Below, one piece after another: positions 47,426-58,221 of a stretch of DNA of 64,000 bases. The stretch is from an uncultured Spirochaetales bacterium. Lineage in GTDB: Bacteria; Spirochaetota; Spirochaetia; Sphaerochaetales; Sphaerochaetaceae. Within the stretch, counting starts at the first letter, position 1, and every line of letters begins with the position of its first letter. Under the pieces are notes generated by a model. It was not told the origin of the DNA. It worked only from the letters and a program-made list of their open reading frames with translations, and did not search any database. The DNA is taken from the NCBI GenBank assembly GCA_944388965.1, contig CALXKL010000007.1, forward strand, positions 1 to 64,000, given 5' to 3'. The position numbers and the translations under genes were made by a program.

Positions 47426-48634
47426 TCAGACCATCTGCGACATCTGTACGAAGACGGGCACGACGCTCATCAGGACGCCGGCCGCGACCGCGCTTCCGAT
47501 GACGCCGGACACGTTCGGTCCCATGGCATGCATGAGCAGGAAGTTCTGGGGATCGGCCTCCTGACCGACCTTGCTCGACACACGTGCGGCCATCGGGACG
47601 GCAGACACGCCTGCCGATCCGATGAGCGGGTTGACGGGATGCTTGGGATCCAGCTTGTTCATCAGCTTGCCAAGCAGGACGCCTCCTGCGGTTCCGACAC
47701 CGAATGCGACCATGCCCAGAAGCAGGATGCCGAGGGTCTCGAGGTTGAGGAACCTCTCTGCGGCCATCTTCGATCCGACCGACAGGCCGAGGAAGATGGT
47801 GACCGTGTTCATCAGGGCGTTCTGCATCGTGTCGCTCAGACGGTCGATGCATCCGCACTCGCGTGCCAGGTTTCCAATCATGAGGGCTCCGATGAGGGAG
47901 CAGGCCGACGGAAGCAGGATTGCGCATACCGTGATGACCTCGAGCGGGAAGATGATCTTCTCAAGCTTGGAGACGGGGCGCATCTGCTGCATCCTGATCT
48001 TCCTCTCCTTCTCGGTGGTCAGCAGCCTCATTATAGGGGGCTGGATGATCGGGACCAGGGCCATGTAGGAGTAGGCCGCGACGGCGATCGAACCGAGGTA
48101 TTCAGGCGCCAGGTAGCGCGTGACGTAGATGGCCGTAGGTCCGTCTGCTCCTCCGATGATTCCGATGGATGCCGCGACGTTCAGGTCGAAGTTGATTCCG
48201 GGCAGGAACGAGAGCAGGAGCGCACCGATGAGGGCCGTGAAGATGCCCAGCTGGGCGGCTGCGCCCAGGAACAGGGTCTTCGGGTTGGCGATCAGCGGTC
48301 CGAAGTCGGTCATGGCTCCGACGCCCATGAAGATCAGGACGGGGAACAGGCCGGATTCGATACCTGCATTGTAAAGCACCTGGATGAAGCCGACCTGTCC
48401 ACTGACGGGGTCGGGGTCTCCCGCGATGTACGCGAACGGGATGTTCGAAAGGATGCATCCCATGGCGATGGGGATGAGCAGAAGAGGCTCGAAGCCCTTC
48501 TTGATCGCCAGGTAGAGGAGCACAAAGCCCACCAGGATCATCAGGAAGTTCCCCCAGCCTCCCGACTGGAGGAATCCGTAGAGACCCGTGCTCTGTGCCA
48601 GCAGTGTAAGTCCAGTGGTTATTCCTTCTAGCAT
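47426..48634 (-). CDS. oadB: Sodium-pumping oxaloacetate decarboxylase, beta subunit
   Basis: 402 aa, very hydrophobic, about 10 helices. It has the [12 protein letters not shown] segment and a conserved [18 protein letters not shown]-type region (here [18 protein letters not shown]), as in OadB/GcdB/MmdB. It decarboxylates the carboxybiotin passed from the alpha subunit and exports Na+. It starts 9 bp after oadA with a TAAGGAGA ribosome site. Confidence 0.95.
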
Positions 48635-48643
48635 AGTCTCTCC

Positions 48644-51103
48644 TTAAGCGATGACGAGGATCGGGTCGTCGGCCTGGAGCTGGTCGCCCTGGCTGACGAG
48701 GATGTCGGCGATGACACCGTCGCAGGGAGCGTAGATGGGGTTCTCCATCTTCATGGCCTCCATGATGACGATCTCGTCGTTCGTCTTGACCCTGTCACCC
48801 TTCTTCACGTTCAGGCGGAGAATCAGGCCGGGCATCGGAGCCGCGACAGTCTGGCCTCCGGATACCGGAGCGCTGACCGTCTCCTGGACAGGAGCCGCTG
48901 CAGGAGCGGGAGCTGCCTGGGGTGCAGGAGCCGCCTGGACAGGGGCCGTCTGCTGGACGGCGACACCGCCGATGGTGAGGATCAGGTCGTCCGCCTGGAT
49001 CTGGTCGCCCTGGTTGACCGCGATGGAGGTGATCTGACCGTCGCAGGGAGCGTAGATGGGGTTCTCCATCTTCATGGCCTCCATGATGACGATCTCGTCG
49101 TTCTTCTTCACGCTGTCGCCGACCTTGACGTTGAGGCGGAGAATCAGGCCGGGCATCGGAGCCACGACGTTCTCGCTGCCGGTGACGACGGTCTGTGCAA
49201 CGGGAGCCGCTGCAGGAGCGGGAGCTGCCTGGGCAGAGGGAGCCGCCTGGACAGGTGCGGCCTGCTGGACGGCGACGCCGCCGATGGTGAGGATCAGGTC
49301 GTCTGCCTGGATCTGGTCGCCCTGGTTGACCGCGATGGAGGTGATCTGACCGTCGCAGGGGGCGTAGATGGGGTTCTCCATCTTCATGGCCTCCATGATG
49401 ACGATCTCGTCGTTCTTCTTCACGCTGTCGCCGACCTTGACGTTGAGGCGGAGGACCAGGCCGGGCATCGGAGCCACTACGTTCTCGCTGCCGGTGACGA
49501 CGGTCTGTGCAACGGGAGCTGCTGCAGGAGCGGGAGCCGCCTTGATGCCGTCGACGATCGACAGAGGATAGCTGACGCCGTTGACCACGGCCGCGTTGTC
49601 GGAGAGCTTGACGCCGTATGCGTTTCCGTTGACGGTGACCGTGTACTCGCCGCTAGCGTTCTTCTTCGCCTCGCTCTTCTTCTCGGCGGTCTTCTCGACC
49701 TTCCTGACGCCGTTGACCTTGGCCTTGCCGGTCAGGTAGAGGATTCCCTTCTCCTTGCAGCTTGCCGCGATGAAGATGTTCTCGTCGGTCTTCTCGAGTC
49801 CGGCCTCGTCAAGCATCTTCTTTGCAGCCTCGATGCCCTTTGCGGGGTTCCTGTCGTTGATGTCGACGACCTTCTCGGTGGTCGGCTCGAGCTTGAGCTG
49901 CTCGCTGGCCGCCTTGACGACCTCTGCATCAGGCTCGACAGGAGTCTTGCCGAAGTAGCCGAGGACCATCTTGCCATAGCCTTCGGCGATCTTCTTCCAC
50001 GGTCCGAACATGACGTTGTTGAACGCCTGCTGGAAGTAGAACTGGGACACCGGCGTGACGCTGGTTCCGAAGCCGCCCTTCTTGACGACGTCGCCCATGG
50101 CCTCGACGATCTGGGGATACTTGTCCATCAGGCCGTTGTCGCGAAGCATCTGGGTGTTCGCCGTGAGGGCTCCGCCGGGAAGCGGGAAGAACGGGATCTC
50201 GGGGTTGACGGCTGTCGCCTCAGGCGGCAGGAAGTAGTCCTTCATGCAGTCCTGGAAGACGCGCTCGGCCTCCTGGATCTTCGTGACGTCGATGTCGAGG
50301 TCGTAGTCGGTTCCACGCAGTGCGTGCCACATCGTGAGGATGTCGGGCTGGCAGGTTCCGCCGGAGCAGGGGACCATGGACAGGTCGACCTGGGTCGCAC
50401 CGGCCTCGATGGCGGACATGTACTGCTGGATGGACACGCCTGCCGTCTCGTGGGAGTGGAAGACGATGTTCATGTTGGGGCCGACGAGCTTGCGGGCCCT
50501 CTTGATGGTCTCGTAGACGTTGTGGGGCGTGGATGTGCCGGATGCGTCCTTGAAGCAGAGGGAGTCGAATGGGATGCCTGCATCCAGAATCTGGCGCAGG
50601 ATCTTCTCGTAGAACTCGGGGTTGTGGGCCGCGGCCTTGTAGCTGTCGGGAAGGCTCATCATGGTCACCGTGACCTCGTGTCTGAGGCCGGCGTCGTGGA
50701 TCGCCTTTCCGGAGTCGATCAGGTTGTTGACGTCGTTGAGGGCGTCGAAGTTGCGGATCGTGGTCATTCCATGCTTCTTGAACATCTGGGCATGGAGCTT
50801 GATGACGTCCCTGGGCTGGGAGTCGAGACCGACGACGTTGACGCCTCTTGCGAGGGTCTGGAGGTTGGCGTCAGGGCCTGCGACTCTCCTGAACTCGTCC
50901 ATCATCGCGAAGGCGTCCTCGTTCGTGTAGAAGTAGAGAGCCTGGAAGCGGGCGCCACCGCCTGCCTCGAAGTGCCTGATGCCGGCTTCCCTGGCGGCCT
51001 CGACCGCCGGCATGAAGTCCTTTGTGAAGACACGCGCTCCATAGACGGACTGGAAACCGTCGCGGAAGGCCGTGCACATGAAGTTGATCTTTTTCTTTGC
51101 CAT
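48644..51103 (-). CDS. oadA: Oxaloacetate decarboxylase alpha subunit with three biotinyl domains
   Basis: 819 aa; usual OadA is about 590-620 aa. The carboxyltransferase TIM barrel spans about residues 1-300 (CTAFRDGFQSVYGAR; SLCFKDASGTSTPHN; HSHETAGVSIQQYM). A helical PYC_OADA domain follows to about 480, then a linker. Three biotinyl domains come next, each with EAMKM: biotin lysines at 574, 678 and 785. Domains 1 and 2 are nearly identical, in protein and DNA; domain 3 differs more. Pro/Ala linkers separate them. It transfers the carboxyl of oxaloacetate to biotin for OadB. The N-terminal barrel is diverged from enterobacterial OadA. Confidence 0.92.
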   Translation of the reverse strand: MAKKKINFMCTAFRDGFQSVYGARVFTKDFMPAVEAAREAGIRHFEAGGGARFQALYFYTNEDAFAMMDEFRRVAGPDANLQTLARGVNVVGLDSQPRDVIKLHAQMFKKHGMTTIRNFDALNDVNNLIDSGKAIHDAGLRHEVTVTMMSLPDSYKAAAHNPEFYEKILRQILDAGIPFDSLCFKDASGTSTPHNVYETIKRARKLVGPNMNIVFHSHETAGVSIQQYMSAIEAGATQVDLSMVPCSGGTCQPDILTMWHALRGTDYDLDIDVTKIQEAERVFQDCMKDYFLPPEATAVNPEIPFFPLPGGALTANTQMLRDNGLMDKYPQIVEAMGDVVKKGGFGTSVTPVSQFYFQQAFNNVMFGPWKKIAEGYGKMVLGYFGKTPVEPDAEVVKAASEQLKLEPTTEKVVDINDRNPAKGIEAAKKMLDEAGLEKTDENIFIAASCKEKGILYLTGKAKVNGVRKVEKTAEKKSEAKKNASGEYTVTVNGNAYGVKLSDNAAVVNGVSYPLSIVDGIKAAPAPAAAPVAQTVVTGSENVVAPMPGLVLRLNVKVGDSVKKNDEIVIMEAMKMENPIYAPCDGQITSIAVNQGDQIQADDLILTIGGVAVQQAAPVQAAPSAQAAPAPAAAPVAQTVVTGSENVVAPMPGLILRLNVKVGDSVKKNDEIVIMEAMKMENPIYAPCDGQITSIAVNQGDQIQADDLILTIGGVAVQQTAPVQAAPAPQAAPAPAAAPVQETVSAPVSGGQTVAAPMPGLILRLNVKKGDRVKTNDEIVIMEAMKMENPIYAPCDGVIADILVSQGDQLQADDPILVIA
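48735..49570. repeat. Tandem DNA repeats encoding three biotinyl domains
   Basis: Units begin at about 48735, 49056 and 49368, so spacings are 321 and 312 bp. The two units farthest from the gene 3' end are almost identical over more than 200 bp; the third has more substitutions. This points to an unequal-crossover duplication after an older one. Confidence 0.9.
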
Positions 51104-51115
51104 ATCTCTTTCCTT

Positions 51116-51412
51116 TTAGTTCCTAGACTTGGAGTAGGCGGCTGCGATGGCCGCGGCGATCTCGGCATCCTTGGCTGCGGAGCTCTGCGCCGCCGGGCGG
51201 GAGGCGGCCGATGCCGTCGTGGCAGGAGCCTTCTTCTTCGGCTCTATTGCCGGTGCGAACCTGGAGCAGACCCTGCTCATCCCCTTGGTGGCGAATACCA
51301 GAATCGCCAGGAAGATGAACACGAAGCCCATGCCCAGGACGAGAAGCACGAGTCCGTCCTGAAGCTGGCGGATCAGCACATCTCTTGGCATGTTCGTTAA
51401 GAGTGTCAGCAT
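51116..51412 (-). CDS. oadG: Oxaloacetate decarboxylase gamma subunit
   Basis: 98 aa. One N-terminal membrane helix (LVLLVLGMGFVFIFLAILVF) precedes an Ala/Pro-rich flexible part and a short C-terminal helix (DAEIAAAIAAAYSKSR), the standard OadG design. It anchors the alpha subunit to OadB. First gene of the oadGAB operon, 12 bp before oadA. Confidence 0.9.
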   Translation of the reverse strand: MLTLLTNMPRDVLIRQLQDGLVLLVLGMGFVFIFLAILVFATKGMSRVCSRFAPAIEPKKKAPATTASAASRPAAQSSAAKDAEIAAAIAAAYSKSRN

Positions 51413-53779: not shown

Positions 53780-54580
53780 TCAGTCCAGGAAGTCCTCGTT
53801 GATCTTCACGCCGAAGGCGTCGGCGAGGAGGCGCAGCTGGTCGTCGCCTATCGTCCTCACGATTCCCGCACCCTTTGCCTTGAGGTATATCTCCGCCGCC
53901 TTCTCGATGGTATGCACAAGACCGAAGGTCTCGTCGAAGGTCTCTCCCGAGCCGAATATGCCGTGGAAGGCCCATACGACGGCGGGGTAGGTCCTGATCA
54001 GCTTCGACGTCTCGAGCGCTATGTCCGTGCCGCCGGGGATCATCCAGTCCAGTATGCCGACGCCCTCGGGGAACACGACGGCACACTCCGTCTCGCTCTG
54101 CCAGAGGATGCGCGAGAGCACTCTGGCATCCGGCTCGATCGTGTAGCTCAGCGCCGTGATGTTCGCCGGGTGGGCGTGGTAGATCACGCGGCATCTTCCA
54201 TCTGTGACTGCGCATCTGGCGATGTGGTTGAGCAGATGGCTGGGCAGCTCGCTGGTCGGCTTCGCATCGTCCTCGAGGCCCCAGAGAATCGTGTAGCCGG
54301 CACCATCGTCGTCGATGCGTATGATGCCCATGTTCCTTTCGGGTTCGAGAGGCATGTTCCGCATGTACTTCCCGCTTCCGGAAGTGATGAAGTGCTCTCC
54401 GGCCAGGGCGGAAGCGTCGATGGGCAGGTCAAGATGCCTGTCCTGCGTGAACAGGTTCCTGCATCCCTCGACCTCCTCCGGTCTCATCCTGTATGTCAGG
54501 TTTCCGCCGTTCCTCTCGTGCCAGCCCAGCTTGTAGCCGTCATGGCACATCCTGATGTAGTCCTCGATCACCCTGTGCAT
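53780..54580 (-). CDS. rhaD: Rhamnulose-1-phosphate aldolase
   Basis: 266 aa, class II aldolase family. NGGNLTYRM near the N-terminus binds phosphate, IYHAHPANITAL supplies two zinc His, and a third His lies in VVWAFHGIFGSG. It splits rhamnulose 1-phosphate into dihydroxyacetone phosphate and lactaldehyde. Last gene of rhaBAD in the transcribed direction; 3 bp after rhaA. Confidence 0.95.
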   Translation of the reverse strand: MHRVIEDYIRMCHDGYKLGWHERNGGNLTYRMRPEEVEGCRNLFTQDRHLDLPIDASALAGEHFITSGSGKYMRNMPLEPERNMGIIRIDDDGAGYTILWGLEDDAKPTSELPSHLLNHIARCAVTDGRCRVIYHAHPANITALSYTIEPDARVLSRILWQSETECAVVFPEGVGILDWMIPGGTDIALETSKLIRTYPAVVWAFHGIFGSGETFDETFGLVHTIEKAAEIYLKAKGAGIVRTIGDDQLRLLADAFGVKINEDFLD

Positions 54581-54583
54581 GTC

Positions 54584-55819
54584 TCAGCTCCTCTTCAGGA
54601 GGACGTCCTCCTCGTATTTCTTCACTGCATCGTACCATGCGAATCCGGGTTCGATGCCCTCTCTTCTCAGGAACTCGTTCCACACCTCCTGCCAGGGCAG
54701 CTCGTTCATCGACTCACCGTAGGCGAACAGGTGGGTGAAGTCCTCCTTCTCCTGGTCCGCGGCCATCTTCGCTCCATCCTCGAGCATGGCCATCAGCAGG
54801 GCCTTCTTCATGTTGTTCGTTCCGACGACCCAGGCCACGATGCGGTTGATCGAGGCGTCGAAGAAGTCAAGGCCGATGAGGACCTTGTCCAGTGCGTCGC
54901 AGCGGACGATCTGCCTGGCGATGGCGCGGATCTCGTCGTCCAGCCGCACCACATGGTCGCTGTCCCAGCGCACCGCACGGGTCACGTGCAGCGGGATCCT
55001 GTCGAACACGGTCAGCAGCGCGGGTATCTTGTCCGCAACGGATTCGGTGGGGTGGTAGTGGCCGTTGTCCAGCAGCTGGTAGACCCCCTTGTGGCTCGCA
55101 GCGTAGCCCAGGTAGAACTCGCCCGAGCCGACCGTGAAGGACTCGACGCCGATACCGAATACCTTGCTCTCCACGCTGTCTATGACACCATCCAGCTTCT
55201 CGCTGAAGATCCGGTCCAGGCATTCCTTCAGCCTCAGACGCGGGGTCAGACAGTCGGCCGGCGTGTCCTTGAAGCCGTCCGGGATCCAGAGATTGCACGT
55301 GCTCCAGCCTCCCAGCTCGCGGGCGAAGTGCGCAGCCACGCGGCGGCTGCGGATGCAGTGCTCCGTCCAGAACCTGCGCACCTCCTCATGCGGGGAGGAG
55401 AGGGTGAGGTTGTTGACGACCATCGGGTGGGAGAAGCAGGTCGGGTTGAAGTCCAGTCCGAGTCCGTGCTCCCTGGCGAAGTCGACCCATCCGTCGTAGT
55501 CCTCCGGCTCGATTGCGTCCCTGTCCACGTCCCGGGCTCCGGTGATGTAGCTGGCGTGCAGGTTGAGTCTCTTGGCACCGGGGATCATGGAGGAGGCGAA
55601 GGCGAAGTCCGCCATCAGCTCCTGTGCGTTGCGTGCCCTTCCTGGGTAGTTGCCGGTCGTCTGGATGCCTCCGGACAGGGCCCGGGCCCCCTTCTCGAAG
55701 CCGACCACGTCATCGCCCTGCCAGCAGTTGATGCTGACCGGGACTTCTGCGATGGTCGCGAGCACCTTCTCGGTGTCTATGCCGATGGCGGCGTAGGCCT
55801 CTCTCGCTTCACTGTACAT
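54584..55819 (-). CDS. rhaA: L-rhamnose isomerase
   Basis: 411 aa, normal length. VSINCWQGDDVVGFEKGAR at the start and the metal-site segments LLDNGHYHPTESVADKI and IGLDFFDASINRI are family features. It converts L-rhamnose to L-rhamnulose with a divalent metal. It overlaps the rhaB stop by 11 bp, so the two are coupled. Confidence 0.96.
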   Translation of the reverse strand: MYSEAREAYAAIGIDTEKVLATIAEVPVSINCWQGDDVVGFEKGARALSGGIQTTGNYPGRARNAQELMADFAFASSMIPGAKRLNLHASYITGARDVDRDAIEPEDYDGWVDFAREHGLGLDFNPTCFSHPMVVNNLTLSSPHEEVRRFWTEHCIRSRRVAAHFARELGGWSTCNLWIPDGFKDTPADCLTPRLRLKECLDRIFSEKLDGVIDSVESKVFGIGVESFTVGSGEFYLGYAASHKGVYQLLDNGHYHPTESVADKIPALLTVFDRIPLHVTRAVRWDSDHVVRLDDEIRAIARQIVRCDALDKVLIGLDFFDASINRIVAWVVGTNNMKKALLMAMLEDGAKMAADQEKEDFTHLFAYGESMNELPWQEVWNEFLRREGIEPGFAWYDAVKKYEEDVLLKRS

Positions 55820-57179
55820 TGTCTTCCTCCTGAGTGATGTGTCCTATGTCGAACGAGGATGTCAGGATCCGGACGATGTCCTCCCTCCTGATCAGCCCCG
55901 TATGCATCATCGCGGACAGCAGGGCGCCAGTGGCGCTTCCCTCCTGCGGTCCCGTGGTGATTTCGAGTCCGGTATACCTTCCGGCCAGTGTGTTCAGATA
56001 CCCGTCCCTGGAGCCGCCTCCGACGATGGCCAGGTGGGTGAAACGGCGGCCGGTGATGTCCTCGAGCTGTCTGATCGAACGTGCGTATGCGTCCGCAAGA
56101 CTGTGGTAGACCACGTTGGCCACCTCTCCGAGGCCTTCGGGTCTGGGAAGCCCCTGCTCGGCTATGGCGTCGGAGACCTCCCTTGTCATGGAGTGCGGAG
56201 CCAGGAAACGGTCGTCCATCGGGTCGACGAGACCGGCCAGCGGACTCTTCCTCGCCATGGCGACCATGTCGTCGAACGAGACATCGTCTCCCGCCTCCCT
56301 GCGTATGCTCTGCAGCATCCAGGTGCCCATGATGTTCTTCAGCAGGCGGATGCGTCCGTCGTCGGCCCCTTCGTTCGTCAGGTTCGCCAGGCGCGCACCA
56401 TCGTCCGTGTATGCCCTGTCGCTGATGCAGCCCAGAAGCGACCAGGTGCCCGAGGAGAGGAAGAGGGAGGTGGCGCCCAGCGGACTGGCGAGCACCGCCG
56501 ATGCCGTGTCGTGAGTGGGTGCGAGTATGAACGTGGCATCGTACCCGATGTCCTCTCTCACCGGCCCCAGGACGGTGCCGGGCATGGACAGGTCTCCAAA
56601 GAGCCGCTGCGGAAGACCGAGTCCGTCGATGAGGTCCCTGTCCCATTCCCTTCTTCCCGCCTTCAGCAGGCCCGATGTGCTGGCGTTGGTGTACTCCTGC
56701 ACCTTGACTCCGGTGAGCCTGAAGGCAAGGTAGTCCGGAATGAAGAGCAGACTGTACGCCTTCTCGAGTATGTCCGGATCCTCCGCCTTCTGTGCCAGCA
56801 GCTGGTAGACCGTGTTGAACTTCTGGTGCTGGATGCCGGTGCGCCGGTACAGCTCTTCCCGCGACACGGGGCATGCGACCTGGTCTGTCCTGCCGTCCCT
56901 GTATGCCACGGCAGGTGTCAGCAGCCTGTCCTCGGCGTCGAGCAGCACGTAGTCCACCGCCCAGGTGTCGATGGTGATGTAGTCCGCCCCTCCGGCCTTC
57001 CTCAGTCCTGCCACCATTTCGCGGTAGAGCATCTCGATGTCCCAGCACAGGTGACCGTCGATGATGCGCTGGGTGTTCTCGAAGCGGTGGACGACCTGGG
57101 TGACGATGCGTCCGTCCTCTAGACGGGCCTTGACGAGCTTGCCGCTCGAGGCTCCGATGTCCATTGCAAGGTAGGTCAT
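55809..57179 (-). CDS. rhaB: Rhamnulokinase
   Basis: 456 aa, FGGY kinase family. MTYLAMDIGASSGKL at the N-terminus binds ATP; ITIDTWAVDYVLLD and the FILAPTHDTASAVLA and LFLSSGTWSLLG segments are typical. It phosphorylates rhamnulose. The ATG 57179 was chosen because MDIGAS is the family start; the longer frame runs into the regulator gene. Divergent from AraC regulator. Confidence 0.96.
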   Translation of the reverse strand: MTYLAMDIGASSGKLVKARLEDGRIVTQVVHRFENTQRIIDGHLCWDIEMLYREMVAGLRKAGGADYITIDTWAVDYVLLDAEDRLLTPAVAYRDGRTDQVACPVSREELYRRTGIQHQKFNTVYQLLAQKAEDPDILEKAYSLLFIPDYLAFRLTGVKVQEYTNASTSGLLKAGRREWDRDLIDGLGLPQRLFGDLSMPGTVLGPVREDIGYDATFILAPTHDTASAVLASPLGATSLFLSSGTWSLLGCISDRAYTDDGARLANLTNEGADDGRIRLLKNIMGTWMLQSIRREAGDDVSFDDMVAMARKSPLAGLVDPMDDRFLAPHSMTREVSDAIAEQGLPRPEGLGEVANVVYHSLADAYARSIRQLEDITGRRFTHLAIVGGGSRDGYLNTLAGRYTGLEITTGPQEGSATGALLSAMMHTGLIRREDIVRILTSSFDIGHITQEEDNVQ

Positions 57180-57276
57180 GACTACATCCTCGTGCCGCTT
57201 TGGCGCATGCGCAAGTGATTGTTTCCACGTTTTATTGATTGATTTTGACAAAACGGTGTGTGAAGATGTAGTCATG
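57177..57276. promoter_or_regulatory. Divergent rhaB/AraC regulatory region with mirrored leaders
   Basis: The two start codons are read outward from a 94-bp gap. CATGACTACATC (57177-57188) and GATGTAGTCATG (57265-57276) are perfect inverted copies, so both genes begin with the same 13-base context. A 10-bp palindrome GCGCATGCGC lies at 57203-57212. These are candidates for AraC-type binding or for shared translational control; no confident -10/-35 pair was found. Confidence 0.55.
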
Positions 57277-58221
57277 AGCACTGTTCTTGATGGATTTTAC
57301 ACTCTCAGCGAAGAGGAGAAGTACTACAGGACGCTGTACGAGGAGGGCAGGAGCAGCGTGGAGTACGTCATGCTGCCCAGCCAGGTGCAGGACTCGGCCA
57401 GGCTTGACGAGCGCATAGTGCTCTCGTCGGCCTATTACGACCTGGGCGAAGAAGAGACGGTGGTGTTGATGAAGCATCCCTGCTTCATGCCACGCTACAT
57501 GCACTCGCACCGCTTCGTCGAGTTCTCGTATGTGCTTTCGGGAAGCGCCCAGGAGGAGGTGGAGGGCTCTTCGTTCACGGTGCGTGAAGGTGATGTCGTC
57601 ATCCTGATGCCCGGCTTCTACCACAGCATCTGGGTCGGCGACGGGAATACGGTGGTGCTCAATCTCCTTGTCGACAGGGACTTCTTCCTGCATCTGGACA
57701 GCCGCTTCTCTCTGCATCTGGCCGACAAGAGCCATGTCCTGGTCAGCCAGGTCGACCTGGTCGACGAAATGTCTGAACTGGTCGTGCAGGAGACGGTCCA
57801 GGACGATGTGCGCCTGGCCATGAAGGAGGTCGTCTTCGAGAGGATGGTGCTCGAGATGAAGAGGCAGGGCAGGCTTGTCGCGCAGGGCGAGGTCGGAGGA
57901 CGCAAGGAGGTTTTCAGGATCATGAGCTACATCGAGGAGCACAGCCACGACGTGACGCTCACCTCGTTCGCCTCCCACTTCGGCATAACCGAGCAGTACG
58001 CCTCACGCCTCATAAGGGACAGGACCGGCCTGTCGTTCTCGCAGATAGTGCGCCGGCTCAGGATGGAGGAGGCGGCACATCTGCTGCGACATGGGCGCTT
58101 GTGCGCGAAGGAGGTCTCCTACATGGTGGGCTACAGCTCGCCGGAGCATTTCAGCCGCACGTTCAAGGCCTACTACGGCGTAAGTCCGGACGCATGGAGG
58201 AAGGCCAACTCCTCAGTCTAG
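57274..58221 (+). CDS. AraC-family regulator of rhamnose genes
   Basis: 315 aa. Residues about 70-150 form a cupin-like sensor (HSHRFVEFSYVLSGSAQEEV, then VREGDVVILMPGFYHS); residues about 215-310 are the double HTH (VTLTSFASHFGITEQYASRL, then MVGYSSPEHFSRTFKAYYGV). It should activate rhaBAD on rhamnose binding, by analogy with RhaS. Divergent from rhaB; overlaps the convergent rhaM by 9 bp. Confidence 0.9.
   Translation: MSTVLDGFYTLSEEEKYYRTLYEEGRSSVEYVMLPSQVQDSARLDERIVLSSAYYDLGEEETVVLMKHPCFMPRYMHSHRFVEFSYVLSGSAQEEVEGSSFTVREGDVVILMPGFYHSIWVGDGNTVVLNLLVDRDFFLHLDSRFSLHLADKSHVLVSQVDLVDEMSELVVQETVQDDVRLAMKEVVFERMVLEMKRQGRLVAQGEVGGRKEVFRIMSYIEEHSHDVTLTSFASHFGITEQYASRLIRDRTGLSFSQIVRRLRMEEAAHLLRHGRLCAKEVSYMVGYSSPEHFSRTFKAYYGVSPDAWRKANSSV

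Follow-up and report, generated by a model that had tools for sequence, protein, structure and literature searches.

Tandem amplification of the biotinyl domain in the alpha subunit of a putative Na+-translocating oxaloacetate decarboxylase from an uncultured spirochaete

The window (the whole stretch of 64,000 nucleotides that was analysed) is part of a 116-kb contig in a genome of 2.1 Mb, which is 97% complete. On the minus strand it carries three genes in the order oadG-oadA-oadB, so that oadA is flanked by both of its pump partners. The oadA gene (48644..51103, 819 aa, from the ORF search and Pfam) encodes the carboxyltransferase (CT, alpha) subunit with three C-terminal biotinyl domains. 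On one side lies oadG (51116..51412), the gamma subunit or membrane anchor (PF04277, E 1.2e-18; TIGR01195, 65.7 bits with a cut-off of 36), and on the other oadB (47426..48634), the carboxybiotin decarboxylase or Na+-translocating beta subunit (PF03977, E 4.5e-158; TIGR01109, 536 bits with a cut-off of 190.6). In relatives with one, two or three biotinyl domains alike, oadB lies directly downstream of oadA. The host appears to belong to the Sphaerochaetaceae, in or next to Bullifex (the family holds Sphaerochaeta and Pleomorphochaeta), and its genus cluster includes an OadA core identical to that of Bullifex porci (NZ_VUNN01000023.1). Elsewhere in the window, minus-strand ORFs at 53780-57281 resemble, from their translations read by eye, a rhamnose catabolism cluster (aldolase, isomerase, kinase), and a 24-nt tandem repeat (2 copies, 80% matches) is found at 57673-57721.

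The carboxyltransferase and conserved-carboxylase region comprises residues 1-480 (49664..51103, minus strand), with matches to HMGL-like at 181-282 and PYC_OADA at 307-497. Its D15, K185, H216 and H218 are invariant in an alignment of 33 proteins from relatives; we take D15, H216 and H218 to be the metal-binding aspartate and two histidines, and K185 the active-site lysine. In Foldseek the CT part matches the folds of transcarboxylase 5S and the CT domain of Vibrio cholerae OadA (TM by target 0.85-0.87). The protein scores 452 bits with the broader PRK09282 domain model (above the cut-off of 402), and 410.5 bits with the NCBI equivalog TIGR01108, under its cut-off of 756.5. Since the equivalog cut-off is missed, the OadA identity was assigned from the operon and from the lack of a biotin carboxylase: no Biotin_carb_C match was found in the 97% complete genome, in a search that was positive in 13 of 14 controls. 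A pyruvate carboxylase (PycB) identity is rejected on the same result, although automatic annotation may name the gene pyruvate carboxylase subunit B because the score falls so far under the OadA cut-off. The operon also points to oxaloacetate as the probable substrate, its decarboxylation being putatively coupled to Na+ transport.

The C-terminal part of OadA alternates between linkers and biotinyl domains (all coordinates on the minus strand). An Ala/Pro-rich linker at residues 516-539 (49487..49558; pLDDT below 50 at 516-536) precedes biotinyl domain 1 (D1; inner, type A; 49283..49483), whose Lys574 is encoded at 49382-49384. Linker 1, at residues 611-642 (49178..49273; 52% Ala+Pro over 613-645, pLDDT below 50 at 611-640), leads to domain 2 (D2; the inner duplicate, type A'; 48971..49171; Lys678 codon at 49070-49072). 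Linker 2, at residues 715-749 (48857..48961; 50% Ala+Pro over 717-752, pLDDT below 50 at 717-748), is followed by domain 3 (D3; terminal, type B; 48650..48850; Lys785 codon at 48749-48751). Pfam finds three Biotin_lipoyl stretches (192 bits in total), and the AlphaFold model has three folded biotinyl domains, D1 being a folded beta domain, with linkers of pLDDT below 50 between them. Over the domain, D1 and D2 share 99% of their residues and 98% of their nucleotides; for D3 against either of them the identities are 76-77% (protein) and 84-85% (DNA). The D1 and D2 units share 93% DNA identity over 300 nt at a spacing of 312 nt, and Tandem Repeats Finder (TRF) reports a 312-nt repeat spanning the three domain-linker units (48649..49542, 2.8 copies, 89% matches). 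The initial annotation had placed three tandem biotinyl domains here, with the first two nearly identical at the DNA level and EAMKM lysines at residues 574, 678 and 785. The ORF search confirms the coordinates, strand and length of the gene, a genome search puts the three domains at the positions given above, and the lysines lie at precisely those residues.

The third domain could in principle result from misassembly. The host assembly comprises 17 contigs, and in two congeners a contig end interrupts the array: in the near relative G014 one contig ends inside D2 and another starts inside an inner-type domain followed by D3, and in G002 the contig stops at the start of a second inner-type domain. 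However, D1 and D2 share no exact stretch longer than 92 nt and are told apart by many differences scattered across the unit, so that ordinary reads can resolve them. The same layout is present in 13 non-redundant three-domain oadA genes from separately assembled genomes, and tandem two-domain OadAs exist on contigs of more than 2 Mb. On repeat length, copy divergence and recurrence an assembly artefact is rejected as extremely improbable. Near the contig end of G014, domain 2 reads AAMKM and has other oddities, which are probably assembly noise. Because arrays can break assemblies, some of the two-domain counts given below may be too low.

In total 124 OadA proteins were collected, of which 20 had been picked for their tandem motifs; 40 have one biotinyl domain, 70 two, 13 three and 1 none. 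In the host's Bullifex genus cluster two domains (inner A and terminal B) are the common state, and four complete three-domain genes (G000, G008, G010, G011) occur among two-domain species. A second genus (g16, to which Candidatus Ornithospirochaeta belongs) likewise has three-domain genes interspersed with two-domain ones, so A-A'-B forms are present in two genera of the Sphaerochaetaceae. Sphaerochaeta has one domain, single-contig genomes included, and another single-contig genome (G036) has a two-domain OadA. The assumption of the initial annotation that OadA normally has one biotin domain holds for the characterised enzymes, which have a single C-terminal BCCP domain (PMC7274780, PMC7145394), but not for the Sphaerochaetaceae, where two is the commonest state. 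At one further locus (L168, G051:C4:64400-67200) an OadA frame of 578 aa has no biotinyl domain and a separate 150-aa frame alongside has one, which may reflect a split gene or a frameshift.

Changes of state were counted on a CT-core tree with bootstraps, from which partial genes had been omitted. For the three-domain state 9 changes are required (bootstrap 5-95% range 9-9), 6 of them forced by well-supported branches; three-domain genes that collapsed in short-read assemblies and were counted as two could lower the number of events. This pattern suggests that arms have been gained or lost many times among related spirochaetes, and that arm number is evolutionarily adjustable. Such frequent change fits neutral turnover as well as selection.

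The added domain is always the inner one. Across all 12 three-domain proteins of the Sphaerochaetaceae, domains 1 and 2 share 95-99% identity and domain 3 is different. A tree of the domains unites the terminal ones of the genus, D3 of the present protein among them, with 98% support, and places the inner pairs within or beside their own gene; with 73 columns and few deep forks resolved, this tree was used only for grouping within the genus. Within three-domain genes the D1-D2 dS is 0.04-0.73 and the dN 0.006-0.03. Between three-domain species the same domains differ by a dS of at least 0.56 (the close pair G000/G014 left out), and in most pairs this is true of the CT core too. D1-D2 divergence is thus lower than that between species, and the inner domain was therefore duplicated or homogenised after most of the species had split. 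For the gene studied here, the D1-D2 dS of 0.09 compares with CT-core values of 0.13 to the nearest species and 0.76-1.31 to other three-domain congeners, which bears out the earlier suggestion of a recent duplication or gene conversion. The counts alone are compatible with a single ancestral triplication followed only by losses, but in that case too the low D1-D2 dS calls for duplication or homogenisation in the recent past. The repeat unit includes the Ala/Pro-rich linker, which may have been a site of unequal recombination. The array is thus a recurrent amplification of the inner domain in an older two-domain protein, and it is present beyond this genome.

Tandem domains are also found in a distant OadA lineage, ~30% identical to the present protein, in other spirochaete families (G363, G409, G414, G330 and others). 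These came from a pattern search over 393 Spirochaetota genomes, in which chance matches are many where genomes are AT-rich; 20 biotinyl-like loci (L190-L209) were selected by eye and all 20 proved to be multi-domain OadA, a share that gives no estimate of frequency because the loci were so chosen. The two members of this lineage that were tested exceed the TIGR01108 cut-off, and several of its tandem OadAs come from contigs 2 to 4 Mb long. Tandem arms are therefore confined neither to the Sphaerochaetaceae nor to fragmentary assemblies. The OadA of G363 has three domains, of which the inner two are again the most alike (89% vs 59-65%).

Domains were located with a profile masked at the lysine column, and the MKM lysine is kept in 179 of 179 domains from 83 multi-domain OadAs (178 MKME and one MKMA); a degenerate extra domain is rejected on this ground. 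Identity between A and B domains is 91% near the lysine and falls to 69% over the rest, as would be expected if the same ligase, CT site and OadB recognise each of them. The sequence data as a whole show duplication and purifying selection on the domains. All three lysines probably carry biotin.

The main rival to a benefit from carrier number is neutral turnover, in which frequent recombination between the repetitive Ala/Pro-rich linkers would add and remove inner domains with no consequence for the enzyme, and the extra domains, biotinylated and usable, would contribute nothing. It accords with the differences in copy number among near relatives and the frequent changes on the tree, with the near-identity of D1 and D2 (taken as recent homogenisation), and with the one-domain relatives that have the same operon. 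It sits less well with two domains being the commonest state in the family and recurring in the second OadA lineage, with the complete retention of the lysine, and with a D1-D2 dN well under dS, though gene conversion could also hold dN low. On balance we judge pure drift unlikely. Alternatively, the inner domains could be mainly spacers that make the arm longer, so that the terminal domain spans the distance between CT and OadB and catalysis falls largely to a single domain. Terminal B is indeed distinct and never the one duplicated, and an extending role is given to Ala/Pro-rich linkers in a review of the 2-oxoacid dehydrogenases (PMC6270654). A pure spacer need not retain the biotin lysine and its surroundings, yet all the inner domains do, and a longer linker alone would be a simpler route; this extension of reach is very unlikely to be the main role of the array.

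We therefore favour, with a probability of roughly 60%, a Na+ pump alpha subunit with an amplified mobile carboxyl carrier, in which all three arms work as interchangeable carriers. In-frame tandem duplication of the domain-plus-linker unit, probably through unequal recombination, gave a second A to an earlier arm of two domains (inner A, terminal B), and recent duplication or gene conversion has left A and A' nearly identical. Purifying selection maintains all three domains, each probably biotinylated. Borne on their Ala/Pro-rich linkers, the domains would be loaded with the carboxyl group at CT and hand it to OadB, the extra arms raising the local concentration and the reach of the carrier and presumably also the rate. 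Three domains are not required, since many close relatives have one or two. A stronger version, possible though we regard it with some doubt, is that arm number is a selected dial, with spirochaetes adding or dropping arms, independently in two OadA lineages, to tune carboxyl flux or assembly of the Na+ pump. If so, the multi-arm design of the lipoyl enzymes would have evolved in a biotin enzyme.

No biotinyl domain outside OadA was found in a search of the genome, the BioY biotin transporter is present, and there is one match to the biotin/lipoate-ligase family. Since no biotin carboxylase was found either, OadA is probably the sole biotin enzyme, served by imported biotin. If every lysine is filled, each chain would need three times as much biotin as an OadA with one domain. 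Three congeners with a two-domain OadA (G012, G013, G015; L031-L033) also carry a 140-aa ORF for a stand-alone biotin carrier, which suggests that they have another biotin enzyme.

The protein is an architectural variant, real and recurrent, of a known enzyme. The open-access literature searched, outside which most subscription papers fall, yielded no paper on tandem biotinyl domains. Why a chain should have more than one swinging arm is naturally asked of the lipoyl enzymes; here the question is testable by direct comparison, because natural one-, two- and three-arm versions occur in close relatives with the same operon. For the Na+ energetics of uncultured gut spirochaetes, the number of domains also provides a simple trait that can be counted.

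By operon and fold the protein is a family member of the decarboxylase pumps, and by anatomy it would work like a pyruvate dehydrogenase E2. In known oxaloacetate decarboxylases the carboxyl group travels on the C-terminal BCCP of alpha, and the beta subunit performs the decarboxylation (PMC7274780). The OadGAB enzymes of Klebsiella, Vibrio and Salmonella share with the present system the CT plus C-terminal biotinyl alpha subunit, OadB and OadG encoded alongside, and the CT fold (2nx9). They have one biotinyl domain instead of three, and the OadA described here is divergent (~30% identity to the TIGR01108-type lineage of other spirochaetes). PycB of the two-subunit pyruvate carboxylase (5ks8) is the closest PDB match for CT plus BCCP by both sequence and Foldseek; it differs in having one BCCP and in requiring a biotin carboxylase partner, which was not found in this genome. 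The glutaconyl-CoA decarboxylase of Clostridium symbiosum likewise uses more than one biotin carrier with Ala/Pro-rich flexible regions in a decarboxylase Na+ pump (GcdC1 and GcdC2, regions of 48 and 39 residues; PMC7145394), but as separate subunits, whereas here the carriers are tandem domains of one chain. A further likeness in architecture is to E2p of Escherichia coli, where swinging domains that are nearly identical and arranged in tandem likewise reach distant active sites by means of Ala/Pro-rich linkers. Its three lipoyl domains are 73% identical and are described as able to act redundantly, randomly and independently (PMC8421416), its linkers are Ala-Pro-rich and of 20-30 residues (PMC6270654), and the E2 lipoyl copy number depends on the species, from one to three (PMC8421416, PMC6270654). 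The E2p domains are lipoyl, N-terminal and part of another enzyme; those described here are biotinyl and C-terminal. OadA has sequence matches to multi-lipoyl E2 proteins (the E2 models matched below cut-off) and, together with the Ala/Pro-rich linkers, these uphold the analogy with triple lipoyl domains drawn in the initial annotation.
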